DNA of 64,000 bases. Origin: Daucus carota subsp. sativus. Taxonomy: Eukaryota > Streptophyta > Magnoliopsida > Apiales > Apiaceae. The stretch spans positions 43,522,689-43,586,688 of the forward strand of contig NC_030381.2 in assembly GCF_001625215.2 (NCBI RefSeq). The letters are read 5' to 3'. Positions 5,200 to 45,354 of this stretch are shown piece after piece. The notes beneath the pieces were generated by a model that searched no databases, was not told the origin of the DNA, and saw only the letters and a list, made by a program, of their open reading frames with translations. Made by a program: the position numbers and the translations under genes. Every line of letters starts with the position of its first letter. The stretch's first letter is position 1.

Positions 5200-5326
5200 T
5201 TAAAATCAATCTCACTGTCCTCACTGTTCTCTGATGAACTCGTAATGCTGGCCCTTAAAATCAATCTCACTGTCCTCAAACCTCCAAACTTTAATTTAAA
5301 ATCAATCTCACTGTCCTCAAACCTCC
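5200..5326 (+). repeat. P450-derived micro-repeats copied from CYP71 gene A
   Basis: A 50-bp segment at 5235-5284 is identical to 8058-8107, inside exon 2 of the P450 gene ending at 9619. The core TTAAAATCAATCTCACTGTC is present three times, at 5200, 5253 and 5296. The matching exon segment encodes the stretch around FEDSEIDFKGQHYEF just upstream of the haem loop. Genes B and C differ from this copy at several bases, so gene A is the source. The fragment is too short to encode anything. Confidence 0.85.
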
Positions 5327-5347
5327 AAAATTCTGAATAAAAATATA

Positions 5348-6854
5348 GGGTGTTGCTAAATACAGTTCACTTTTACTTCGTGCAGTTCGCAGAGATTACA
5401 AGTATATCCCTCAACCTATTAAATGTGTGGAACCATGATAAATGCCTTAGTGTTGATGACAATGCGTCTCAGATAATAATATCATATTGTGATAAGGTTA
5501 TATTGCACATGTATAACACCTGATGCCTAAACTTTCTTATTTTCTTTTTTAATTTTTAATTTTAAGATATTTAAGTTTTAATTCTAAAACATATTCTTTT
5601 CAAAAATATGTTATAATATATGATTATCATGTTTTAATAATTTATTGATTTTGCATATTTAATATTATGAATTAATAAAATTATTGACTATTAAAGAAAC
5701 ATTCATTTTTATAAATATTATATACATGTTAAAATTGTGTGCAAGAATAATCTTTAAAATATATTTTAAAATTGTGAAGATTCTTAATACATATTAAAGA
5801 TTCTAGGCCGCCTAAAGGTTATATTATAAAAGCTCAAGTATTTTTATTTTGACTAAAATATTATATCAAACACTAGTGTTAACTTTTTAATATTTTTTGT
5901 TATTGAGATTTTAGCCCATCCCAACCCCAATGCTAGTATAGTCTTAAAATTTTAAGTTGTTATGATTAAATGAGAATGAACAAAGTAAAAAAAATTACAC
6001 ATCGACAAAATATTAAAGATGTGAATAAAATTATATATAAAGTAAAAAAATTTAGTGATAAAATCATATATAAATTCAAATAAAATTATATGAATAAATA
6101 TTATATATAACTTATCTTTCTAAATATTCAATACACATTAAAGATTCTAGGCCAGCTAAAGGCTATATTATAAAAAAAATCAAATATTTTTTATTTTGAT
6201 TAAAATATTATACCAAACATTAGTGTTGTCTTTTTAATATTAAAAATCAAGTATTTTCTATTTGACTAAATATTATATCAAACACTAGTGCTAACTTTTA
6301 ATATTTTATATATTAGGATTTTAGCCATTCCGACCCTAATGATTTTTTGCCCATGGTCTCGTAGCAAAGCCTCAAAATCTTAAGTTGTTTCGATTAAATG
6401 AGAATGAACAAAGTGAAAAAACTAAACATATCGATAAAAAATTAAAGAGATGGATAAAATCCTATATAAAATCAAATATTTTAGTGATAAAATTATATAT
6501 AAAATCAAATATATGAATAAATATTATATATAAAAATTATTTTTCTAAATTCTTAATACATACTAAAGGTTCTAAGCCAGTTAAAGGTTATAATATAAAA
6601 AAAATCAAATAGAGTTTAGTATAATCTCAAAATTATAAGATTTAAATTAAAGTTGAGAATGAACAAGAGTACTCATTGAAAAAAGATAATTAAATTAGTT
6701 AGTTAGTGGATGGATGTATTGATTGCGTGTATTAATACCCGATGTGCACAAAAAATTAGGGCAGAAAAATATAGTTACACAAAAGTTTAGGAAGGATATA
6801 TTTGTAATCTGGTGAACTGCACAAAGTAAATATGAAGTGTATTTAGCAACTATG
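5348..6854. mobile_element. non-autonomous TIR transposon, ~1.5 kb, Mutator-like or hAT-like
   Basis: The left terminus (GTTGCTAAATAC...GTGCAGTTC...GATTACAAGTATATCC) recurs in inverted, imperfect form at the right end, over about 65 bp on each side. An 8-bp direct repeat AAAATATA flanks the element (5340-5347 and 6855-6862). The interior is about 80% AT with no transposase ORF. It contains three diverged direct repeats starting near 5781, 6128 and 6550, each with a conserved block CTAGGCC-GCTAAAGG. Superfamily is uncertain: 8 bp fits hAT, but the terminus lacks the usual CAGGG and resembles MULE-type ends. Confidence 0.7.
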
Positions 6855-7842: not shown

Positions 7843-9619
7843 TTAAGTTTGGATTTCATGCTTGATCGGAACGAGTTGAAGAGGAAATTTCTTGTTTATG
7901 GTCAAGCCAACCTCTTCCTCCATGTTAATGTCTTCAGGCTTCATCCCATCAGGCAACTGCCAGTCGAAACAATACAGCAGATTTGCAAGTATAGATTCCA
8001 CCGAAGCCAAGCCCATTGTCATTGCAGGACACATTCTGCGACCAGCACCAAATGGAATGAACTCGTAATGCTGGCCCTTAAAATCAATCTCACTGTCCTC
8101 AAACCTCTCTGGAGAAAATTCCTCCGGCTTATACCATGTATTTGTGTCTCTGCCAATAGCCCATGCATTGACAAAGATCCTGGTTTTGGGGTATACGTTG
8201 TATCCCCCAATTTTGCAGAATTGCATTGATTCGCGAGGTAATAGGAGTGGCACTGGAGGGTGCAACCTGAGGGTCTCTTTTACCACCATCTTGAAGTACT
8301 TGAGTTTCTCTATTTCACTCTCGTCTACTTGTGATTTATTTCCCGTGATCTCTCTGATTTCAGCTTGCACCTTTCTCATGACTCGCGGGTTCTTGGAAAG
8401 CTCACTCATGGCCCATATGATTGTGCCAGAAGAAGTGTCTATTGAAGCCAGAAATAGATCCTGAAGCAGGTGAAAACATGCATGTTACAAATCATAGAAA
8501 TAAATCATTAGCTGGTTAAATAGTCACATAGAAAGAGAAGCAGAGGAAACGGACAACCAACCGAGTTTCTAACAGCTAATGATTCAAATAAATCATTAGC
8601 TTGTTAGTGATTATAGAAGTTTTAAACTTCTATAATCAAACACACAAACACAAAAATATATTCAGACGAAGAAAATATAGTTTTACCACAAAGACGGCTT
8701 TAATATGATCTTTTGAGAGACGGAGGGCAGCCGTTTCATCATTGGACAAAGCAAGCAAGATATCAGTTATGTCTTGATGGTTCAACTGAGGCCTAGAAGG
8801 ATCGAGATGCTCTTTGATAACACTTTCATTAAATTTATCGACCTCAGTAAAGCACTTTTCCATCTTGTGTCGAAATCCAGATAATAGATCAATTATCCAT
8901 CCATAATAAGGGAAGAAATCTGCTGCACAAAAGCCACTAGTCACTTTCATAACATCCTGTATAGTCTTCTGAATTTCATCTTCCTTGAACTTCTCCCCAT
9001 GGAAACTACTGCCAAAAGCAACCTCACAAATGATGTTTTTCGCGAGGGAAAATATTTTCTTGTCAAGGTGAATTAACTTAGTGTCAGGGTCTAAAGCTTC
9101 TTTGGAGATGAGGGCCACAAATTTAGCAATCTCTTGGTCTCTAACATGTTGAAAGGAACGAACTCTCTTAACAGTAAAAATTTCTATGACACAGAGCTTA
9201 CGCATTTCACGCCAGTAATCACCATAAGGAGAAAAAGAGATGTCCTTCTGATTGTATGATAGTTTTCTCATACCATAAGAATCAGGCCTGCTGCAGCACT
9301 TTGTATCATGAACTTTGAGCACCTCTTTGGCCATCTCAGACGACGAGACGATCAGAGCAGGGACTTGGCCTAGTCTTAGGTGCATGACAGGCCCGTATTG
9401 TTGGGACAGTCTGTACAGAGAAACATGAGGCAGTCTTCCAAGTTGGTGAAGGTTGCCTAATATGGGGAGCCTCGGAGGACCTGGGGGCAGATTTTCTAGA
9501 ATTTGTTTCGAAAAATATCCATGACACAATGGAAGGAGAAACAGGAGGAGGAGAAAGGCAGTGGTAGTTAAAAGCCAGAAGAATGAGACAGAGCTAAGAA
9601 ATTCAGAGATCATTTCCAT
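7843..9619 (-). CDS. cytochrome P450, CYP71 family (CYP71B-like clade), gene A
   Basis: ER-anchored haem monooxygenase; substrate unknown, and CYP71 members mostly oxidise specialised metabolites (terpenoids, phenolics, alkaloids). Exon 1 is 9619-8687 and exon 2 is 8460-7843, joined by one phase-0 GT-AG intron, giving 516 aa. Visible in order: N-terminal membrane anchor (residues about 8-35), proline hinge LPPGPPR (about 44-50), I-helix segment with D319-T320-S321 (ASIDTS in place of the common AGTDTS), K-helix E373-T-L-R376, PERF (428-431), and haem loop [11 protein letters not shown] with Cys455 as axial ligand. The residue after CP is Ala rather than Gly, as in part of the CYP71B group. 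The start matches MEMISEFL in gene C. The upstream sequence is shared with gene C. The intron holds a palindrome at 8612-8638. Confidence 0.93.
8612..8638. repeat. 27-bp near-perfect palindrome in the gene A intron
   Basis: GATTATAGAAGTTT and ACTTCTATAATC face each other around a very short loop inside the only intron of P450 gene A. Genes B and C have no such hairpin in their introns. It may be a small foldback remnant; no function can be read from it. Confidence 0.7.
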
Positions 9620-10023
9620 GAGTGCTACTGAGGGGCAAGATAAGGTGTGATATCCTTATAAAACCAGATTGTGATGTAGACTTAGTGGTTTATTTTGAAA
9701 CTAAGGCCCAAAGAAATGTCAAATACGTTGAATGAGGATCAAGTGAGTGCACTCTTAGTCAATACTCTCGCTCTGGCTCTCATGTTCCTTACGTTTCTTG
9801 ATTGACTCAACCTAATCTGGAGAGGGTAAGTATGTAAATAGTCAGTTAAATTATTTTTTAGCTACTTAATGAAACTATTAGGCATTAATGAAATTTGAGT
9901 TTTCGTTTAACACAGATCGTAAAAATACAAGTAAAAGCTACAATGAACTGGCAAAAGCACAGTTGCTCACTTAACTCTATAATCGAAAGAAGAGGGGCTA
10001 AGGCCAATACTGGATTGCGCGGT
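9620..10023 (-). promoter_or_regulatory. gene A promoter, block duplicated upstream of gene C
   Basis: The first ~190 bp upstream of gene A (9620-9810) align almost base for base with 13796-13990 upstream of gene C, so the tandem duplication included the promoter. A minus-strand TATA-like sequence TTTTATAAGG lies at 9655-9664, about 36-45 bp before the ATG, implying a very short leader. Beyond 9810 nothing recognisable is seen up to the end of gene B. Confidence 0.55.
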
Positions 10024-11641
10024 TTAATTTATACGTCTGACAGGTAGCAGCTGAAGTGGGAATTTTTTGTTAATAGTCAAGCCAACCACTTCTTCCATGT
10101 TAATGTCTTCAGGTTTCATCCCTCTAGGCAACTGCCAGTCGAAACAATGCAACATATTTGCAAGTATTGATTCCACCGAAGTTAAGCCCGTTGTCATTCC
10201 AGGACAAATTCGTCGACCAGCACCAAATGGAATCAGCTCGTAATGCTGACCCTTGAAATCAATCTCACTGTCCTCAAACCTCTCTGGATAAAATTCTTCC
10301 GGATTCAACCATGTATTACTGTCTCTGCCAATCGCCCATGCATTGATAAAAATCCTGGTTTTGGGGTACACACTGTAGCCCCCAATCTTACAGTATTGCA
10401 TTGATTCTCGCGGTAAGAGTAGCGGTGCTGCAGGGTGCAGCCTCAGAGTCTCCTTCACTACCATCTTCAAGTACTTGAGCTTCTCTATTTCACTCTCTTC
10501 TACTTGATTTTTATTTCCTATTACTTTTCTGATTTCAGTTTGCACCTTTGACATTACTCGCGGGTTCTTGGCCAGTTCGCTCATTGCCCATACAGTTGTC
10601 CCAGAGGTAGTGTCTATTGAAGCCAGAAATAAATCCTGAAAACACCAGAAACACATGAACCTCATAGAAGCGCGTAAAGGAAAGAAGCACGTAGGGTATA
10701 GTATAATATACAAACTAAATTACCATGAAGACAGCTTTGATGTTATCTTTGGTGAGTCTGAGGGGACCAGTTTTATCATTTGACAAAGCAATTAAGATGT
10801 CAGTAATGTCTTCATGGTCCAGCCTGGGCCTTGAAGGTTGGAGATGTTCCTGAATAACAGCCTCATAGAATTTATCAAACTCATGAAAGCAATTTTCCAG
10901 CTTCTGGCGAAACCCTGTTAATATATCAATCATCCATCCATAGTATGGAAAGAAATCTGCAGCGCAGAAGCCACTAATTACCAGCAAGGCATCCTGTAAA
11001 GTCTTGTGAATTTCTTGTTCCTTGAGCTTCTCATGTTCAAAATCGGTTCCAAATGCAATCCCACAAATGATGTTTTTTGCAAGAGAGTATATTTTGTGAT
11101 CAAGCTGGATGGATTTATTGTCAGGGTCTGAAGCTTCTTCTGAGAGAATGTTCACAAACTTGGCAATCTCCCGGTCTCTGACATGCTGAAATGAACGAAC
11201 CCTCTTGACAGTAAAAAGTTCTATGACACAAATCTTACGCATCTCGCGCCAGTACTCACCATAAGGACTGAAAGATATGTCCTTTCGGTTGTATGATAAC
11301 CTCCTCATACCATACGAATCAGGCCTATTGCAGCAACTCGCATCCTGATCTTTGAGCACCTCTTTTGCCATCTCGGGGGATGAAATGACCAAAGTAGGGA
11401 CTCGACCAAGTTTTAGGTGCATGACGGGGCCATATTTTTGGGACAGTTTATACAGAGAAAAATGAGGCAGATTACCAAGTTGGTGAAGGTTGCCTATAAT
11501 GGGAAGCCTTGGAGGACCTGGGGGTAGATTTTCCAAATTTCGTTTCCCTACATTTCTGTTTAAGAAGATAAGTAGAATGGCAATGCCAGTAAGAAGCCAT
11601 GGCAATGAAAGGAAGTTGAGAGATTCCGAAAAGATTTCCAT
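10024..11641 (-). CDS. cytochrome P450, CYP71 family (CYP71B-like clade), gene B
   Basis: Second member of the tandem array. Exon 1 is 11641-10724 and exon 2 is 10635-10024, separated by an 88-bp GT-AG intron; 509 aa, normal for the family. N-terminal anchor, LPPGPPR hinge, I-helix ASIDTTSG (Asp314), ETLR K-helix (Glu368/Arg371), PERF and haem loop PFGAGRRICPG with Cys450 are all present. Unlike A and C it has the classical CPG. It is the most diverged intact copy: the anchor differs (MEIFSESLNFLSLPWLL) and its upstream region does not align with those of A and C. Substrate is unknown; a microsomal oxidation in specialised metabolism is the family expectation. Confidence 0.93.
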
Positions 11642-12045
11642 TAAGCTAGGTGATAGGGTAGAAATGAGCAGGAAACCAAATTTCGAATTTGGTTATGAGA
11701 AGATAGAAGACAGTGTTAAACATGGTACCATACAATATTAAAATATTCTATCTTTATCCTTAAACTGTGATATGGACCTGTGCGGTGCTGGTTGAATTAA
11801 TGCAAAGCAATAATGTAAAAACAGTTAAAAGTATCCGCATGACTATACATATCATCCAAGTATATATAGAGGGCAATCACATTACAGTGAATAAATAGTT
11901 TACTCGGTGTGAATTTATATTCTTATTGACTATATCAATTGCTACTGCAATTTAGATAATTATGTATCTGTACCTCCAGTGAGCCCTTGACCTCGTGCTC
12001 TAATTACGAAGGAAGGCATTTCCTAGCTAGTTTATAGTCAGGGGA
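11642..12045. other. spacer between P450 genes B and C
   Basis: Contains the upstream region of gene B and the 3' flank of gene C. No further gene or transposon end was recognised. Confidence 0.4.
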
Positions 12046-13795
12046 TTACTTGGTCTGAATCTGAAATTCATGTTTAATAGGCACCAGATGAAGAGGAAAC
12101 TTCTTGTTTACAGTCAGGCCAAACTCTTCTTCCATGTTCATGTCATCAGGTGTCATCCCGCTGGGCAACTGCCAGTCAAAGCAATGCAGCAGATTTGCAA
12201 GTATTGATTCCACCGATGCCAAGCCCATTGTCATTGCAGGACACATTCTTCGACCAGCACCAAATGGAATCAACTCGTAATGCTGACCCTTAAAATCAAT
12301 TTCACAGTCCTCAAACCTCTCTGGATAAAATTCGTACGGCTTTGACCATGTATCACTGTCTCTGCCAATAGCCCATGCATTAATAAAGATCCTGGTTTTG
12401 GGGTACACATTGTATCCCCCAATCTTACAATGCTGCATTGATTCTCGAGGTAAGAGTAGGGGCACCGGAGGGTGCAACCTGAGGGTCTCCTTTATCACCA
12501 TTTTGAAGTACTTGAGTTTCTCTATTTCGCTCTCATCTACTACTGCTTTATTTCCTACAGCATTTCTGATTTCAGCTTGTACTTTTCTCATTACACGCGG
12601 ATTCTTCGCAAGCTCGCTCATAGCCCATACAGTTGTCCCAGAACTTGTATCAATCGAAGCCAGAAACAGATCCTGTAAACAGAACAATCCACTCATCAAT
12701 TTTATTTAGGTTAATGATAAACAGCTAACACCAGATGCATTATTTCATTGAAGACCATATATGTGTATGATTTTATTGATGTCACTCTTGTGGGCTGGAA
12801 GTGTTTGCAATGGAACTTACTCTACACATGTATATATACTGAAAAAGAAAGAACAGAGTTACCATGAAGACAGCTTTGATGTGATCTTTCGTGAGATCAA
12901 AAGGGGCATTTTCATCATTGGACAAAGCAATTAAGACATCAGTTAAGTTTTCATGATCCAACCTGGACCTAGAAGGTCCAATATGTTCTTGGATAACACT
13001 TTCAGAAAATTTATCGAGCTTATCAAAGCTCTTTTTCATCTTCCTGTGGAATCCGGTTAATAGATCAATTATCCAGCCATAATATGGAAAGAAATCAGCT
13101 GCACAAAAACCACTAATCACGATCATGGCCTCATGTAAAGTCTTCTTAATTTCGTTCTCCTTGAACTTCTCACCTCCAACATTAGTGCCAAAAGCAACCT
13201 CACATATAATGTTCTTTGCAAATGTCAATATTTTCTCATCAAGGTGTATGAATTTATTGTTAGGATCCGAAGCTTCTATTGAGATATCATTCACCAATTT
13301 AGCAATCTCTCGGTCTCTAACATGTTGAAATGAACGAACCCTCTTGACAGTAAAAAGTTCTATGACACAGAGCTTACGCATTTCACGCCAGTAATCACCA
13401 TAAGGAGAAAAAGAGATGTCCTTCTGATTGTACGATAGTTTTCTCATACCATAAGAATCAGGCCTGCTGCAGCACTTTGTATCATGAACTTTAAGCACCT
13501 CTTTGGCCATCTGAGGCGACGAGACGACCAGAGCAGGGACTTGACCTAGTCTTAGGTGCATGACAGGCCCGTATTGTTGGGACAGTCTGTAGAGAGAAAT
13601 ATGAGGCAGTCCTCCAAGTTGGTGAAGGTTGCCTAATATGGGGTGCCTCGGGGGACCTGGGGGAAGATTTTCTAGAATTTGTTTCGAAAAATATCCGTGA
13701 CATAATAGAAGGAGAAATAGGAGGAGGAGAAAAGCCGTGATGGTTAGAAGCCAGAAGAACGAGACAGAGCTAAGAAATTCAGAGATCATTTCCAT
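12046..13795 (-). CDS. cytochrome P450, CYP71 family (CYP71B-like clade), gene C (mosaic copy)
   Basis: Third intact member. Exon 1 is 13795-12863 and exon 2 is 12672-12046, with a 190-bp GT-AG intron; 519 aa. Hinge LPPGPPR, I-helix ASIDTSSG (Asp319), ETLR, PERF and haem loop [11 protein letters not shown] (Cys455) are intact. Residues 1 to about 160 are nearly identical to gene A. From about residue 167 to the end of exon 1, and through the intron, it instead matches the truncated gene D (for example NDISIEASDPNN and FGTNVGGEKFKE). This points to gene conversion or unequal crossing-over within the array. The promoter aligns with that of A, but the TATA-like box of A is replaced by TGTACAAAG. 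Catalytic activity is expected; substrate unknown. Confidence 0.93.
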
Positions 13796-13990
13796 GAGTG
13801 CTACTGAGGGGCAAGATAAGATGTGATATCTTTGTACAATCAGGTTGTGATGTAGACTTTGTGGTTTATTTCAAACTAAGGCTCAAAGAAATGTAAAACA
13901 CATTGGATAAGGATCAAGTGAGTGCAGTCCTGGTCAATACTCTCGCTCTTGCTCTCATGTTCCTGACGTTTCAAATGATTGACTCCATCT
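13796..13990 (-). promoter_or_regulatory. gene C promoter, duplicate of the gene A promoter
   Basis: Aligns along about 190 bp with 9620-9810. The position of the gene A TATA-like box (TTATAAAA on the plus strand) reads TGTACAAT here, so the core element is damaged while the flanks are conserved. Confidence 0.6.
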
Positions 13991-14296
13991 GTTGAGCTGG
14001 CATCCCGGGACAACAGAAGATAAACTCAACACTTGAGCTATCCAATCGTGCTGGAGAGTTTATGTAATTAACACCATTAACTATGTGATTTCACTCTCAC
14101 CGAATCTTTCTCTCTATACTCTCTGAGATATCTATGATTTCTCTCTACGTGCGATTCATTGAATTATCTCTAGGAGTTTGTCTCACTCGGAGTTCTATCA
14201 CATCTCTGTCTTTATATATCTTATTCCAGTGTTTTTGAGCAGATTATTAGGTAAAGTTGTGTGCTTTCTGTTCAAATCATTGATCAAAGATGATTA
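13991..14296. other. unassigned insertion between P450 C promoter and P450 micro-fragment
   Basis: About 300 bp with CT-rich composition (repeated TCTCTC and TATCTC) that matches nothing else in the array. It could be part of an LTR or other insertion, since it begins TGTTGAG and ends near ATCA, but no target duplication was found. Confidence 0.3.
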
Positions 14297-14338
14297 TATT
14301 GGATCATTTCCCTGAGTGCTAGTGAGGGGCAAGATAAG
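14297..14338 (-). pseudogene. P450 5'-end micro-fragment with lost start codon
   Basis: Aligns with 13784-13824, the leader and first codons of gene C. The ATG (CAT on the plus strand) has become CCT here. It is joined directly to the intron remnant of gene D. It is a recombination scar rather than a gene. Confidence 0.7.
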
Positions 14339-15376
14339 ATGCATTATTTCATTAAAGACCATATATATGTATGATTTTATATGTATGAAACTTAGTCTAC
14401 ACATGTATATATACTGAAAAAGAAAAAACAGAGTTACCATGAAGACAGCTTTTATGTGATCTCTTGAGAGATGGAAAGGGGCATTTTCATCATTGGACAA
14501 AGCAATCAAGACATCAGTTAAGTCTTCATGATCCAAACTGGACCTAGAAGGATCAAGATGTTCTTGGATAACACTTTCAGAAAATTTATCGAGCTTATCA
14601 AAGCTCTTTTCCATCTTCCTGTGAAATCCGGTTAATAGATCAATTATCCAGCCATAATATGGAAAGAAATCAGCTGCACAAAAACCACTGATCACGATCA
14701 TGGCATCATGTAAAGTCTTCTTAATTTCGGTCTCCTTAAACTTCTCACCTCCAACATTAGTGCCAAAAGCAACCTCACATATGATGTTCTTTGCAAATGT
14801 CAGTATTTTCTTATCAAGCTGTATGAATTCATTGTTAGGATCCGAAGCTTCTATTGAAATATCATTCACCAATTTAGCAATTTCTTGGTCTCTAAAACGT
14901 TGAAATGAACGAACCCTCTTGGTAGTAAAAAGCTCTATAACACAAAGCTTACGTATCTCTCTCCAGTAATCACCATAAGGAGAAAAAGTGATGTCCTTGC
15001 GGTTGTATGATAATTTCCTTGTACCACAAGAATCAGGCCTACTACAACACTTTGTATCGTGAATTTTGAGCACCTCTTTCGCCATCTCTGGGGACGAGAT
15101 GACCAGAAGAGGGACTTGGCCAAGTTTGAGGTGCATGACAGGTCCATATTTCAGGGACAGCTTCTGCAGTGAAACGTGAGGCAATTTTCCAAGCTGGTGA
15201 AGGTTGCCTATGATTGGAAGCCTTGCTGGACCTGGCGGTAGGTTTTCCAGATTATTATTTCTATTCACTTTTCCAAGACAAAACCATGGAAGGACGAAGA
15301 AGACCAGAAAAGTAGTAATGACAGTTAAAAGCCAGAAAACAGAGTTGGAGCTGAGGAATTCAGAGAAAATTTCCAT
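14339..15376 (-). pseudogene. truncated cytochrome P450, gene D (exon 1 only)
   Basis: Exon 1 (15376-14438) is open for 313 codons from MEIFSEFLSS to DHIKAVFM and ends at the same GT donor as genes A-C. About 98 bp of intron (14339-14437) follow and align with the gene C intron. The sequence then switches at about 14338 to a copied P450 5' end, and no exon 2 follows. The K-helix, PERF and haem Cys are therefore missing and no functional P450 can be made; read-through would add a short intron-encoded tail. An upstream in-frame ATG at 15388 is possible, but 15376 matches the other copies. The intact reading frame implies recent truncation or selection for a partial transcript. The 3' half of the exon matches gene C. 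Confidence 0.88.
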
Positions 15377-27966: not shown

Positions 27967-30096
27967 TTGTTTTGCTGATGATTTACGGAAACATGAGAAC
28001 TGAAAGTATGTGATTGTGCGTGTGTGTTTTTGAGACAGAACTGAGAAGTGTTATGATCAGATCAGATGAGAGTGAGATGGATGATGACAGGATGGAACTG
28101 ACATGGCGGGTCCAGCCAATTCATTTTAATTCCGCACAATAAAATTGAGAAATCTATCCGTTAATCTCAGAAAAAACCCTTACGAAAATTCACAATTTTC
28201 TCAAATCAAAAACTTACATCATCGTTGTTCTTGAAATTATTCATAAATTAATATATCAAAATTTTATTTCAATCCATAAAATTTGCTTGTCACATCATTT
28301 TCAGGTTATTTTATTTTTATTTTATTTTCAATTTCCACATTAACATCGACTAACATTCGTTAGTCAGATTATGACAGAGAGAAGCGAATTAGATATTTTG
28401 AAAATTGAAGAATTTATTTATTAAATGTTTTAGTTTATGAATTTAAACTATAACAAACTATAGTTGAAGGACTAACGGAAAAACTATGCATAATTTTAAT
28501 TATTAAAGACTTTTGTGCATAAAAAGATTATTATCATTATTGAGATGATAACTTATAAAAATTTATCATTTAAATAAAAGTAGTTGTTAATATATGTTTA
28601 TAAACATACTTGAAAATTTATTAATAATTCTAGACTGAAAAACTTATAGCACAGATTTATGCGTTTTCATGGTTATGAACTTTATGATTTGCATTATCCG
28701 CCACATAGGAGGCTACTGGGGGGTACATTTTTTTCCTTTCTTTTATCTATTTATTAGAAGGGAAGAATTTATTAAAATATTGAAATCTAGTGGGGACTTC
28801 TCGAGCTGTCAACTACAACTTGATTATAAAATAAAAAATGATGTAAATAGATAGTCATTTTGTTTTCAAATCGTTTAACAAATTATAAATTAAATTTTTT
28901 TAATCTAAAACAAATATTACAATAATATTTCGAACAATGCAACATGCATCAGTTGTGAACATATTAGCATCGCAATTAACCTTCACATAAACATCATCTG
29001 TAACCCAATATTCATAATTATCACTCACATGATCTGAAATTGGAGCAACAAATATCCTCAAAATATGAACAAATTTTTGTTGTGGAAATCGAGGCCTTAC
29101 GATAATCACCACCATCCCATAATTGATGCAAGTTGTACGGATTAGCCAAACTATCATGTAAGTACTTCTTAGAAGAACTGCCGAAATCCATAACAAGACA
29201 CACACAAACATTTGAATATAAAACAATAACATCCAAAAAAAAATGGACACGATCAACAATTTTGATAACAAGGTATTCCACGAGAACTCATCAAAAAGGA
29301 TGAAATTTTGATTTGATTACAACACCGATAAATATGAGAGATAATGGAAGAAAGAAAAGGTTTAATTAGTGAAGGAGATGAAAATTGAATGGAGAATTAA
29401 TAAATAGAATCCTAATTCCGAAAATCGACTCTCAAAATCGCAAACGCTATTGAGACCGTGAATACACTTTTAAATAGAAATAAGGAATAGAATTTAGAAA
29501 GGCATCCTCACTTGTCATAAACGATACATGAATAAAAAAATATATATGCCGTAACTCCATTGATAAGGGTGAATTTGAGATTATGTGTATAAATGTTCAT
29601 TTTTAGGTTCGATTCTCCACAACTCATAAGGGATTTTTTTTATTTTTTTTAAATTTTATGAGTAAACAGTGGGATGTTATACTAATCATCTTGCGAGATT
29701 AGTCAAAATGTGCGAAAACTGGTCCCTCTTATTTCCCTCATTTCCTTGCACGGAAGGGTGGAAGGGATTAATAAACTATTCGACGGCTTTAGACGGGTTC
29801 CCAGAGTATAACAGTGTTGTTCAAGTTCTACTAACAGCTAGGCATTCCGACCCCCCTTAGCATTTACTCCTACTAGATATTCAATTAAGCATACTGAAAT
29901 CACCAGTACATTTCATCCAATTACAATCTCAAGTTAAAAGGTTTAAAACAAACTTATGCAAGTGGACTTATTACACTCATTTAGAACTTCTAGTTTACTG
30001 TAAGGAATCACATGAATCTGCAATTTAAAGACTTGAGCACTGGTATCCACACTTAACTTTTAACCCTCGCTATGATTATTAAGAGGAGAGGCATAT
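27967..30096. other. spacer with EBM promoter and no recognised gene
   Basis: The first few hundred bases hold the EBM leader and promoter. The rest is AT-rich. ORFs at 28900-29271 (minus) and 29669-29860 (plus) match no family I know. A possible SINE is listed separately at 29545-29655. Confidence 0.4.
29545..29655 (+). mobile_element. possible tRNA-derived SINE head
   Basis: A degenerate polymerase III A-box-like block (AACTCCATTGATAAGG) is followed about 45 bp later by GGTTCGATTC, a good match to the tRNA B box. A T-rich stretch then follows. No cloverleaf can be drawn, so it is not a tRNA gene. Tail and target duplication were not defined. Confidence 0.35.
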
Positions 30097-30793
30097 ATAG
30101 CCCATTGTCATTGCAGGACGCATTCTTCGACCAGCACCAAATGGTATCAACTCATAATGCTGACCCTTAAAGTTGATATCACAGTCCTCAAACCTTTCTG
30201 GCTAAATTCTTCAGGATTCCCCCATGTATTGATGTCTTTTTCCATCGCTCATGCATTAACAAAGATCCTAGTTTTGCGGTATACATTACATCCCCCAATC
30301 TTACAGTATTTCATTGATTCTCTAGGTTACAGTAGCGGTGCTGCAGGGTGCTGCCTGAGAGCCACCATCTTAAAGTACTTGAGCTTCTCTAATTCATTTC
30401 CATCCACAGCTAATTTGTTCTCTGTGATTTTTCTGATTTCAGCTTGCACCTTTTTCATAACCCGTGGGTTCTTGGCAAGCTAGCTCATCGCCCATACAGT
30501 TGTCACAGAAGTAGTGTCTATTGCAGCCACAAATATATTCTGAAAAAGAATCAACAGAATTATAAAGATTCTCAACACAGGAGAAAACATGCATACCAGT
30601 TTCATCATGAAGAAATTAGAGGTACCATGAAGACAGAGGGAACTTGCACTTTCATCATTTGACAGAGCAATCAATATATCAGTAATGTCTTCATTATCAA
30701 TGGAAGGAGGAAGAAGGCAATGATGAGAAGGGTAATCACAGTTAAAAACCATGGCAATGAGATAGAGTTGATAAATTCTGAGAAGATTTCCAT
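30097..30793 (-). pseudogene. CYP71-type cytochrome P450 pseudogene (E)
   Basis: A decayed relative of the 7.8-15.4 kb array, 15 kb away and in the same orientation. Exon 1 remnant 30793-30625 keeps the N-terminal anchor (MEIFSEFINSISLPWFLT) and then jumps, out of frame, to the end of exon 1 (NEDITDILIALSNDESA), removing about 250 codons. Exon 2 remnant 30539-30097 keeps the I-helix stretch AAIDTTSVTTVWAMS, then has a TAG stop, small indels in the K-helix area, and breaks off after the haem loop, where the axial Cys codon TGT reads CGT (Arg). No functional product is possible. It resembles gene B most (HPAAPLL). Confidence 0.9.
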
Positions 30794-37939: not shown

Positions 37940-38440
37940 ACGAACCGGAACTCTAGTTAGACTATGAGCCACCCTATTGGCTTGCTACCGAATATGACAT
38001 AACGTGACCATAGGAAAATCCTGGAGCATCAATCTGCATTGAGCTATTACGTGACCAACCTCCAACAAATTCATTGTTGTTCCATTTAGAGTTCTGGCTA
38101 CTAATAATGAGTCAGTTTCAATTGTTATTTTTCTACCTGGGTATTCCATTAGCCAAGACAGAGCTTCCCTAACTCCTATACACTCAACTTCCATCACAGT
38201 TGTCGGACGAGGAAGGGAGATACATTTTCCGCCAATGAAGGAGCCCGCCTGATCTCGCATAACCAATCCTATAGAAAAAGATTCATTCTCTGGAAAAAAT
38301 GACACATCAACATTGAGTTTCAAGCCCCCTGGCTCTGGAGGAAACCATTTCTTCGACTTGCAGTCGCGCCCATTTTCCCCCTTACAATTTGTTCCACCTT
38401 TTGATCGAGCATCCTTCCAGTAATTAGAAAAAATATCATA
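37940..38440 (-). pseudogene. LINE-type RNase H domain remnant (RVT_3), copy 1
   Basis: Encodes the C-terminal RNase H-like domain typical of plant non-LTR retrotransposons. WFPPEPGGLKLNVDVSFF carries the first acidic residue, EVECIGVREALSWL the Glu, and ETDSLLVARTL the next Asp. The frame meets a TAG immediately after LCHIR where copy 2 reads HVRKQANRVAH, so it is broken. No reverse transcriptase or endonuclease is nearby. It is homologous to 39984-40536, about 2 kb away in the same orientation. Confidence 0.82.
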
Positions 38441-39137
38441 TATATATTTTTTTTGCACCTGTCTCGAAACATGTATAAGATGTAAAAACAATCATATACA
38501 ATAATTAAGTATGATAGACGAATCACACAGATTAAGAGCATAGAGAATCAGAGATCATGTAAATTGAAGCAATCAAAGAATCACTGAAAGAAGTTTATTA
38601 ATATGATCAGGTCTAAATAGAGAATAAAGTACAATTTATTTGAGGGATTAGAATTTGTCTATCAATTCAATATCAAGTGTCAGTGGATTCTAGTATCGTC
38701 ATCCTGATTATTGATAAACAGTATCTAAAATATTTTTAGCCCGGAATAGATGGATCAAAGTAATTCGATTTCAACGTTAGTCGTTTGTAAACCAGACCAG
38801 TACACTAAGACACATACGAAGTTGTTCGTCATATTTATCAAACAAAGAATGGATGAGGTCAACAAGTCAATTGATCCAAGTCAAAATCAAGCCTACCGAA
38901 TGTCTCTTGGAGTTAACAACTGTTATATAAGCTATGTTACGTATTTTTATATATGCACTTTTAAATGGAACCAAGTGTTACTACTTATAAATTTTCTATA
39001 TAATAACACCTACAGGTATATATACATATGTATATAGGCACCAGGTTCATTTAAAATAACTAAGTATGAAAGATTTCTACTGGTGCATACTCTGAAAACA
39101 AGACGCCAAATGAATGTTTGATGAGAAATTGGCCAAG

Positions 39138-39616: not shown

Positions 39617-39980
39617 GAGCATCTCCAACGGTGCTCCTAACTCATTCTTTAAAAAATAATATAAAATATCGCTCCTAGTAAGTTAATACATCGGAAAATG
39701 TGAGAACTCCAATGCTACTCTTTATAGTTAGCTCCTAATTCACATTTTATATTTATTTTATATAAATGGGAGGAAAAAGTTAACTAAAAGAGAGAGAAGA
39801 TTGGAAAGAAAATAATATTATATTGAGTTAAGAGCTACTAGATGCTCTTTAAAAGAAAGGAGAGAGAGTAGGCTCCTAAATTTTTAAAGAGTATCTAGGA
39901 GCCCATTGGAGCACTATATTTTGATTTGCTCCTAAAATTTGGACTTAGGAGCTTGTTTAGAGAGCCCATTGGAGTTGCTC
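39617..39980. mobile_element. Tourist-type (PIF/Harbinger) MITE
   Basis: Starts GAGCATCTCCAACGG and ends with its inverse (CATTGGAGTTGCTC), flanked by TAA on both sides (39614-39616 and 39981-39983). TAA/TTA duplications are characteristic of PIF/Harbinger. The element abuts and truncates the RNase H remnant to its right. Confidence 0.78.
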
Positions 39981-39983
39981 TAA

Positions 39984-40536
39984 AGGTCTTATTTATAAAG
40001 AGCTCTCTAATATTAAAAGAATTAGTGATTATATAGTGCAATAACATACAGGGAACTCTTGCCAAACAATGAGCTACCCTATTAGCTTGCTTACGAACAT
40101 GACATAAACGAATACTTGGAGAATCTTGAAGCATGAGTCTGCACTGCTCCTGGATATAACCAACTTCTAGCAAATTCACCGTGCCTTCCATCAGTGCTCG
40201 ACATACTAGCAGGGAATCAGATTCAAGAGTAACCCTCTGAATTGATTGTTCCATAATCCATGATAAAGCCTCCCTTACACCAATACATTCAGCCTCCATT
40301 ACAGTTGCTGGCCGGGGTAACGAAATACACTTACCTCCTACAAATGCTCCTTCCTGATCACGAAGTACCATGCCTACAGAAAAAGATTCATGTCCCGGGA
40401 AAAATGATGCATCAACATTAAGTTTCAGCTCCCCTGGTTCTGGAGGTTGCCATCTTCTCAATTTGCTGGCTCCCTTAACGTTCACAGCTCTCCTGTCCAC
40501 ACTTGTTTTACGAGCAGACTTCCACTCATTATACAC
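39984..40536 (-). pseudogene. LINE-type RNase H domain remnant (RVT_3), copy 2
   Basis: Open from codon one through the RNase H domain. WQPPEPGELKLNVDASFF, EAECIGVREALSWI and ESDSLLVCRAL hold three of the acidic residues. The terminal motif reads NRVAHCLAR, with His where many members have Asp. After the domain the frame runs on into the adjacent Tourist MITE, so the last ~30 codons of the apparent ORF are MITE sequence. No other LINE domains remain. Very similar to copy 1. Confidence 0.82.
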
Positions 40537-41230
40537 TTTAAACGTGTTTATAACATTGCTTTTGACTAGAAAATAAGTAACTATGACTTGATTTAAAATC
40601 TAAAAATACAAGATTAATAATCTGAAAATAATATAAAACGCGATATTTTTGGAATCATTAATTAAAAAGGGAGAAAAATATGATTTAACAACTTTTCTAC
40701 CAATGAAATTAGCAGTTAGTAAACTCTATAATAAAATGTAAAGGCGGAGATATTAATTTTATTGAAGCTGAACATGTAACTGATCGCTAGCTTCTGATAT
40801 TATATTGCTCTAATATTTATGTCTTTGACAATAACCCGGACTTCGATCAACTCTTTTGAGTTCGATCGACTTAGGGGACCCGAATCTTCGTCGAATTTTC
40901 CATAGACATATTTAAAGAGCTCAGGAACATTTTCAAAGTTTAATATACTATATTTTAATCAATCATGATCTTACTTGCAATTATACAGCTGTAAAAAACA
41001 CCACTAGTTCTTCAGCATTCACAACGAGTTGTCACATACTTAAATTTGCATAAGAATTGAAAAAAAAAAAAAGAATTGAAAAAAAAAGTCATTAAATAGC
41101 CTCACAGGCTTGCATTTAGAGTAAGAGCTGTTATATGATAGTCTCTCAGCATGTACACCGCTATTCTTCTTCTTTTTTTTTTTTTTAAGATGCTATTCTT
41201 AATTTAGTTCTCGTAGTGCTTTAAGAGATA
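40537..41230. other. gene-free AT-rich stretch
   Basis: No gene, RNA or bounded transposon recognised; short A-runs are present near 41060-41090. Confidence 0.4.
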
Positions 41231-43863: not shown

Positions 43864-43962
43864 TTGCTTTGTTGCAAATCTTGGACATCAAAGCAAGTGT
43901 TTTTGAATTCTTGTGAATAGAAGAGACTTGAAACATTCCCCTCTTCTCATTTTCTCATTTTC

Positions 43963-45354
43963 ATGGACAATATTCTGTTTTTCTTGTACTCTCTTCCACT
44001 AGTATGTTTATTCTTCTTACTATACAAGGTCATTGATCAAAGAAGGCACCAATGCTGCTACATCTTGAACTATCAATGCTACAAACCATGCGACGAGAGG
44101 AAGCTTAATACCGAGTTCTGTGGAGAGGTAATCAAGAGGACCAAGAATTTAGGGCTCAATGAGTACAAGTTCCTCTTGAAAGCCATTGTTAGCTCCGGCA
44201 TTGGGGAAGAAACGTATGCCCCGTGGATGGTTATCAATGGGAGAGAGGACAATCCTACTTATGAAGATGCCATCTTGGAGATGGAAGAGTTTTTTTGTGA
44301 CAGCATTGATAAGGTTTTGTCGAAAACAGGCCTTTCTCCGAGGGACATTGATGTACTAGTTATCAATGTGTCGATGCTGTCTACGAGCCCGTCTTTGGCT
44401 TCTAGGGTTATAAATAAGTACAAGATGAGGGATGATGTTAAGACCTACAATCTCACTGGAATGGGATGTAGTGCTAGCTTGATATCGATCAATATTGTTC
44501 AAAGCATCTTCAAGTCTCGAAAGAATGTGAACGCTCTTGTCGTGACATCAGAGTCCTTGACCCCTAATTGGTATACCGGCAACAATAGATCCATGATTCT
44601 TGCTAATTGTTTGTTCAGATCGGGAGGTTGTGCAATGATTTTGACGAACAAGGTGGCTTTAAGGAGTAAGGCCATTTTTAAGTTGAAATGCTTGGTTCGA
44701 ACACATCATGGTGCGAAAGATGAAGCTTATGGTTCATGTATACAGACGGAGGATGAGCTGGGGCGTGTAGGGTTTCATCTCGGGAAGAACCTCCCAAAGG
44801 CGGCTACTAGGGCTTTGATTGATAACCTAAAGGAGATATCTCCGAGAATCTTGCCAGTAAGAGAGCTTCTTCGCTTCGCCATTCTTTCATTTGCTTATAA
44901 ACTGAACAAAGGCTCTTCAAAAGGAGGAGCAGCAATTAGGCCAATGATCAACTTCAAATCAGGAGTTGATCATTTCTGCATTCACACAGGTGGAAAGGCG
45001 GTGATCGACGGAATAGGCCAGAGTCTAGGTCTGAGTGAGTATGACCTGGAGCCGGCGAGGATGACGTTACACAGGTTTGGTAATACTTCTGCTAGTAGTC
45101 TTTGGTATGTTTTAGGGTATATGGAAGCGAAAAAGAGGTTTAAGAAAGGTGACAGGGTTTTTATGATAAGTTTCGGGGCAGGGTTCAAGTGTAACAGCTG
45201 TTTGTGGGAGGTTTTAAGGGATTTAGATGATGGAAATTGCTGGAAAGAGTGCAATATTGATACATACCCTCCAAAAACCCTAACAAATCCCTTCATGGAA
45301 AAGTTTGGTTGGATTCAAAATGAAGATATCAGCACCTTCAAGTTTCCAGAGTGA
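43963..45354 (+). CDS. KCS12: 3-ketoacyl-CoA synthase (KCS12-like)
   Basis: ER-membrane condensing enzyme that joins malonyl-CoA to a long-chain acyl-CoA, the first and chain-length-determining step of very-long-chain fatty-acid elongation for waxes, sphingolipids or suberin. Single uninterrupted exon, 463 aa, normal for the intronless KCS group. One hydrophobic segment at the N terminus (about residues 4-22; most KCSs have two), then the FAE1/CUT1-type thiolase-fold domain. The catalytic triad is predicted as Cys169 (TGMGCSASLIS), His341 (FCIHTGGKAVID) and Asn374 (HRFGNTSASS). The short N terminus (CYILNYQCYKP) and C-terminal NPFMEKFGWIQNED resemble Arabidopsis KCS12 rather than CER6 or FAE1. 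Substrate chain length cannot be read from sequence. A TATA box lies at 43854 and an AATAAA at 45550, about 200 bp after the stop. Confidence 0.95.
   Translation: MDNILFFLYSLPLVCLFFLLYKVIDQRRHQCCYILNYQCYKPCDERKLNTEFCGEVIKRTKNLGLNEYKFLLKAIVSSGIGEETYAPWMVINGREDNPTYEDAILEMEEFFCDSIDKVLSKTGLSPRDIDVLVINVSMLSTSPSLASRVINKYKMRDDVKTYNLTGMGCSASLISINIVQSIFKSRKNVNALVVTSESLTPNWYTGNNRSMILANCLFRSGGCAMILTNKVALRSKAIFKLKCLVRTHHGAKDEAYGSCIQTEDELGRVGFHLGKNLPKAATRALIDNLKEISPRILPVRELLRFAILSFAYKLNKGSSKGGAAIRPMINFKSGVDHFCIHTGGKAVIDGIGQSLGLSEYDLEPARMTLHRFGNTSASSLWYVLGYMEAKKRFKKGDRVFMISFGAGFKCNSCLWEVLRDLDDGNCWKECNIDTYPPKTLTNPFMEKFGWIQNEDISTFKFPE

Follow-up and report, generated by a model that had tools for sequence, protein, structure and literature searches.

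Gene C of a cytochrome P450 array resembles two of its neighbours in different places, which raises the question of whether recombination built its first exon and, if so, by which route. We analysed the window, meaning the whole 64-kb stretch of DNA at C1:43522689-43586688, from a genome of 441 Mb in 11 contigs; its content is plant-like. Four P450 genes, A, B, C and D, all on the minus strand, follow one another head to tail within positions 7843-15376 and are transcribed in the order D, C, B, A. The parents identified below, A and D, are neighbours of C in this one tandem array and share its strand. The coding features are as follows.

7843..8460, minus strand, exon 2 of gene A
8687..9619, minus strand, exon 1 of gene A, parent of the 5' part of C
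10024..10635, minus strand, exon 2 of gene B
10724..11641, minus strand, exon 1 of gene B, used as a control
12046..12672, minus strand, exon 2 of gene C (208 codons plus stop), not A-like
12673..12862, minus strand, intron of gene C (190 bp; the first 127 bp or so D-like, the remainder without counterpart in D)
12863..13795, minus strand, exon 1 of gene C, the mosaic (933 bp, 311 codons; open frame with ATG at 13795 and GT donor at 12862)
14438..15376, minus strand, exon 1 of gene D (313 codons)

The Pfam p450 model (PF00067) matched both exon 1 (E 1.6e-32) and exon 2 (E 2.8e-58) of C above the curated cut-off; the NCBIfam matches of exon 2 were to bacterial P450 models only, all below cut-off. 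When the exon 1 protein of C was searched against the genome, A, B, C and D scored best, followed by gene E on C6 (59% identity; 20210523-20212284, both exons), which served as the outgroup. Beyond those five genes, the other 122 of the 127 matches listed had at most 44% identity. Exon 2 of C carries the heme-cysteine loop FGAGRRMCPAMTMG and the ExxR motif KETLRLHP, two hallmark motifs of P450s. An Ala follows Cys-Pro in this loop, where we take the usual consensus to be Gly; A and C read CPA at the heme cysteine, and B and E read CPG. The I-helix motif, usually AGxDT, is ASIDTS in exon 2 of A, B and C (core ASIDT) and APIDTG in E. The best solved-structure matches of C were plant ferruginol and sugiol synthases. 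Judging by sequence style, we assume that the array genes belong to the CYP71 family, which is recognised by clade placement and an identity of 40% or more to its named members.

A mosaic first exon in gene C

Identity was scanned along exon 1 in 90-base windows with a step of 45. C was 89-99% identical to A in the first ten windows, the last of which covers alignment positions 406-495, and 72-82% identical in the eleven later ones; its identity to D was 61-86% and 85-98% in these two sets, respectively. C thus switches from A-like to D-like, and its divergence from the two is not even along the exon. Informative sites gave the same picture: 100 of 196 united C with A and 96 united it with D, and they were sorted by position. 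C equalled A at 86/90 sites before alignment position 445 and at 5/9 between 445 and 495; from 507 onward it equalled D at 88/97. At 28 additional sites A and D agreed and C differed. The initial annotation, which had matched residues 1 to about 160 of C to A and those from about 167 onward to D, into the intron, agrees with both analyses.

It had also called the front part almost perfectly A-like. The match is strong, but not of that degree: between 13370 and 13795 (bounded by the last site with the AC|BD pattern), 404/426 bases equal A and 324/426 equal D, leaving 22/426 base differences and 8 amino-acid differences in 142 residues between C and A. The HVRD block cited in its favour is present in both A and C; it is not diagnostic of A, since it also occurs in B, D being the one gene that differs. 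In the D-like part (12863..13297), 411/435 bases equal D (24 differ) and 332/435 equal A.

The recombination tests pointed in the same direction. With C as the child of A and D, the exact 3SEQ-type P was 1.8e-32, and MaxChi reached 134.6, compared with a highest value of 24.2 in 20,000 permutations. In 500 alignments simulated on one tree under the GTR+G fit, MaxChi was at most 15.4 and the descent statistic at most 48 (observed, 79). These simulations contained no blocks of differing rate along the gene, for which B served as the control; compared with A, C and D, it showed no comparable switch. The two-rate likelihood (2-lnL) and MaxChi placed the switch as follows.

13295..13358, minus strand, breakpoint range, best point 13347/13346

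This range corresponds to residues 146-167 of C, approximately. It overlaps the interval first suggested for the switch, 13285-13345, and extends further 5' in the gene. In the solved-structure alignment the switch falls after the WR..RK motif; from the general P450 layout, we presume that helix C and substrate-recognition site 1 precede it and that sites 2 and 3 follow.

The non-coding DNA on either side is divided in the same way as the exon.

13796..13985, minus strand, A-like upstream region of C, 88% identical over 191 columns to 9620-9808 upstream of A

The A-like block thus reaches about 190 bp 5' of the ATG of C. Downstream, the introns of C and D are equal at 89/97 aligned bases, with about 30 bp of C absent from D. 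The intron of A matches that of C only in the donor region, and A is clearly different from C here and in later exon 1, as had been noted. The synonymous divergence (dS) of C exon 2 was 0.653 to A and 0.592 to B. Since it is about as far from A as from B, A-likeness does not return in exon 2, which presumably descends from the D lineage. The coding switch is therefore single, with upstream DNA and intron splitting alike, as far as the comparison reaches; D has no exon 2 to compare. We conclude that this signal is real and strong and that gene C arose naturally, long ago, as a hybrid that took its promoter side and protein start from the A lineage and the remainder from the D lineage.

Gene C as the recombinant

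Codon alignments were trimmed back to the outermost safe sites, which excluded 72 columns at the junction. In the A-like part, dS was 0.156 for A-C, 0.866 for C-D and 0.680 for A-D; in the D-like part, the values were 0.807, 0.135 and 0.745, respectively. Because the A-C and C-D distances switch while A-D alone stays flat, C is the recombinant.

The 15 five-taxon topologies were compared for each segment by AU and SH tests. For the A-like segment, the three trees joining A and C were kept (p-AU 0.61, 0.54, 0.29) and the other 12 were rejected by AU (largest 0.0057), two of these being retained by SH (0.095). For the D-like segment, the three trees joining C and D were kept (p-AU 0.68, 0.33, 0.45), and both tests rejected the other 12 (largest value 0.0057 for AU and 0.041 for SH). 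Site-pattern tests, segment trees and the flat A-D divergence together bear out the earlier proposal of recombination inside exon 1, with an A-type 5' part joined to a D-type 3' part.

We also ran the recombinant test on all 24 ordered triplets of a child and two parents. A and D were rejected as the recombinant: C with parents A and D gave 1.8e-32 and 1.7e-32, and the lowest P of any other triplet was 7.2e-7 (child D, parents C and B). Ten further triplets, each including C, had P from 0.0077 down to about 4.8e-6 or 1e-5. This is the pattern expected if C is the mosaic. A tract from B as a third donor at the junction was suggested by a run of 44 bases identical between B and C (alignment 433-476) and was rejected; a switch at 455/456 explains the run, given that B resembles A up to that point and is identical to D over 456-476. 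One site shared by B and C only (alignment 491) is left unexplained by the switch and is compatible with chance.

Routes to the hybrid

The truncated gene D and the interval between it and C bear on the route. A local search of the 64-kb window plus 20 kb on its low-coordinate side found no exon 2 of D; its exon 2 matches were A, B, C, a pseudogene (30082-30539), fragments of A (5200-5357) and one 18-base match. The intron truncation of D lies between D and C, where we found the following features.

14341..14437, minus strand, remnant of the D intron, which aligns with the C intron and is cut at 14341
14302..14341, minus strand, second A/C-type 5'-UTR and start fragment, in which ATG reads AGG
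13997..14055, strand not assigned, interspersed-repeat fragment, which accounts for most of the 42 genome matches of the region (two copies compared)

From D, the order is the cut intron, the 40-bp start copy, about 250 bp of unique DNA, the repeat fragment and the A-like upstream region of C. The start copy and the D intron overlap by 5 bases where they join, and by eye the copy differs from 13784-13823 at 2 of 40 bp; its BLAST alignment to A was 82.8% identical over 64 columns, part of the alignment being D intron. It may be a relic of one more A/C-type gene, or else templated filler from the repair of a break. The 250 bp or so between it and the repeat matched nothing else in the genome search. 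We take the repeat fragment to be SINE-like, as it resembles the 5' end of a SINE. We considered a long terminal repeat in the C-D interval and dropped it, since the compared copies look like a SINE 5' end.

Homologous recombination within the array, most plausibly an unequal crossover whose product was later trimmed, is the account that we are inclined to accept. An A-type gene contributed the membrane anchor and about 150 N-terminal residues, together with the DNA upstream of them; a D-type gene contributed what follows in exon 1, the intron and, presumably, exon 2. If the ancestral array was transcribed in the order D-B-A, unequal crossing-over of A from one chromatid with D from the other, inside exon 1, would have yielded the duplication product D-B-(A5'/D3')-B-A. 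Exon 2 of D and the extra B would afterwards have been lost in a deletion reaching from the D intron to a point upstream of the hybrid, leaving D (exon 1 only)-C-B-A. Without such a deletion, the duplication product does not fit the D-C-B-A order seen today; the deletion would also account for the loss of the 3' half of D at this point, and the cut intron of D is at the expected place. Against this account, the D-C scar is not simple, containing the second start fragment, the unique stretch of about 250 bp and the repeat fragment, and no trace of a second B copy was found between D and C.

Interlocus gene conversion is a serious competitor that we rate somewhat lower. Here C would have arisen by tandem duplication of D, and its first 150 codons and the DNA upstream of them would later have been replaced by the sequence of an A-type gene. 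Conversion would produce an identical site pattern, and A, B and D are all still in the array. Gene conversion is common among plant gene families, a rice genome survey reporting 377 conversions in 626 multigene families (PMC2277409). Like the rice cases described there, C reflects sequence exchange between plant paralogues, although for C we favour a crossover with a single switch over a bounded tract. Only the 3' end of a tract is seen in C: no D-like sequence was found within 642 bp upstream, although any such sequence may be masked by the repeat fragment and the unique DNA there. The ages of the two halves were indistinguishable, as a single event requires: 14/99 and about 11/85 synonymous sites differ (Fisher P 0.83), and in the flanks 20/188 upstream and 8/97 intron positions differ (P 0.68). 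Conversion soon after the duplication of D fits these ages too. A prior copy of D would allow C-D to be older than A-C, but the dS values (0.135 and 0.156) are not different.

Two further explanations deny a recombination event in the genome itself. Tandem paralogues are a classic site of misassembly, and C might be a chimera of A and D reads; a splice of the assembly's A and D should, however, match them nearly perfectly. The divergence of about 5% from each in the matching half (22/426 from A, 24/435 from D) means that C is not a splice of the present copies. Moreover, C carries its own constrained changes, and a chimera would need two more unassembled loci or very divergent alleles, so we regard this origin as very unlikely. 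Uneven rates or selection might instead mimic an A-like front and a D-like rear, as exon 1 has both conserved and variable stretches. We give this practically no credence: 0/500 simulated alignments reached the observed MaxChi or descent, B shows no switch against A, C and D, dS itself switches, the upstream DNA and intron split likewise, and the segment trees contradict it. Returning to the favoured reading, we infer a crossover rather than a conversion, a later deletion, and C as a working enzyme with a D-type core and an A-type promoter.

Constraint, possible function and parallels of gene C

Changes private to C were polarised with the other genes; four A/C or C/D differences that were undecided and one junction replacement were left out. 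The A-like part had 10 synonymous and 5 replacement changes, and the D-like part 5 and 7, respectively. The synonymous share, 15/27, exceeded the neutral share of 185/861 (P 1.1e-4); by part, P was 4e-4 in the A-like part and a weak 0.07 in the D-like part (5/12). This suggests that the private changes of C have been under purifying selection. The open frame, splice sites and heme loop of C are all intact, and C may be the only complete gene retaining the core of D, behind A-type upstream DNA. A bolder reading, plausible but less likely than not, makes C a functional new enzyme: exon 2 would have been lost from the D lineage itself, whose catalytic core would survive only in the hybrid, which would have gained the proximal promoter, anchor and first substrate-recognition region of A. 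If so, the crossover rescued and rewired a P450 lineage while its parent decayed. The hybrid may also have a changed substrate range, as envisaged in the initial annotation.

New plant chemistry comes in large part from tandem P450 arrays. In humans, too, tandem P450 genes have given rise to hybrids (CYP2D6/CYP2D7 and CYP21A2/CYP21A1P), mostly as recent alleles and often with loss of function; unlike these, C looks fixed, is old and shows signs of constraint. The nearest parallel is CYP337B3 of the cotton bollworm, Helicoverpa armigera. It is reported to be a chimera that takes much of its 5' coding part from CYP337B2 and its intron and later coding part from CYP337B1; its origin is attributed to unequal crossing-over, and it metabolises fenvalerate (PMC6211633). 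C is likewise a hybrid of tandem P450 paralogues, with its 5' part from one parent and its intron and later coding part from the other. As described there, however, CYP337B3 replaces both parental genes on a chromosome and comprises recent population alleles with a tested new activity, whereas C still has A and a truncated D beside it, goes back to an old event (dS about 0.15), and any new activity of it is hypothetical. The two also belong to different P450 families and kingdoms. The kind of event is thus already known, and C is a new, well-resolved example of a well-known route of tandem enzyme-gene evolution. It is also a clean natural swap experiment, sharing its front with A and its later exon 1 with D, with both lineages adjacent.

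Other features were observed in the window. A P450 pseudogene of the array's group lies at 30082-30793 (minus strand), with the start of exon 1 fused to its end and an exon 2 containing stops and a frameshift; it is nearest B (369/458 bases; A 361, C 359, E 320), with a tree support of only 52. Three pieces of A exon 2 (24, 30 and 51 bp), each 100% identical to A, lie in non-P450 DNA at 5200-5357 (minus strand) and look like templated filler at a repaired break. An RNase H (RVT_3) reverse-transcriptase-like open frame is at 37985-38491 (minus strand, E 1.9e-12), and the open frame at 39895-40599 resembles it by eye. An intronless 3-ketoacyl-CoA-synthase-like gene (FAE1_CUT1_RppA, E 5.4e-115) occupies 43921-45354 on the plus strand.
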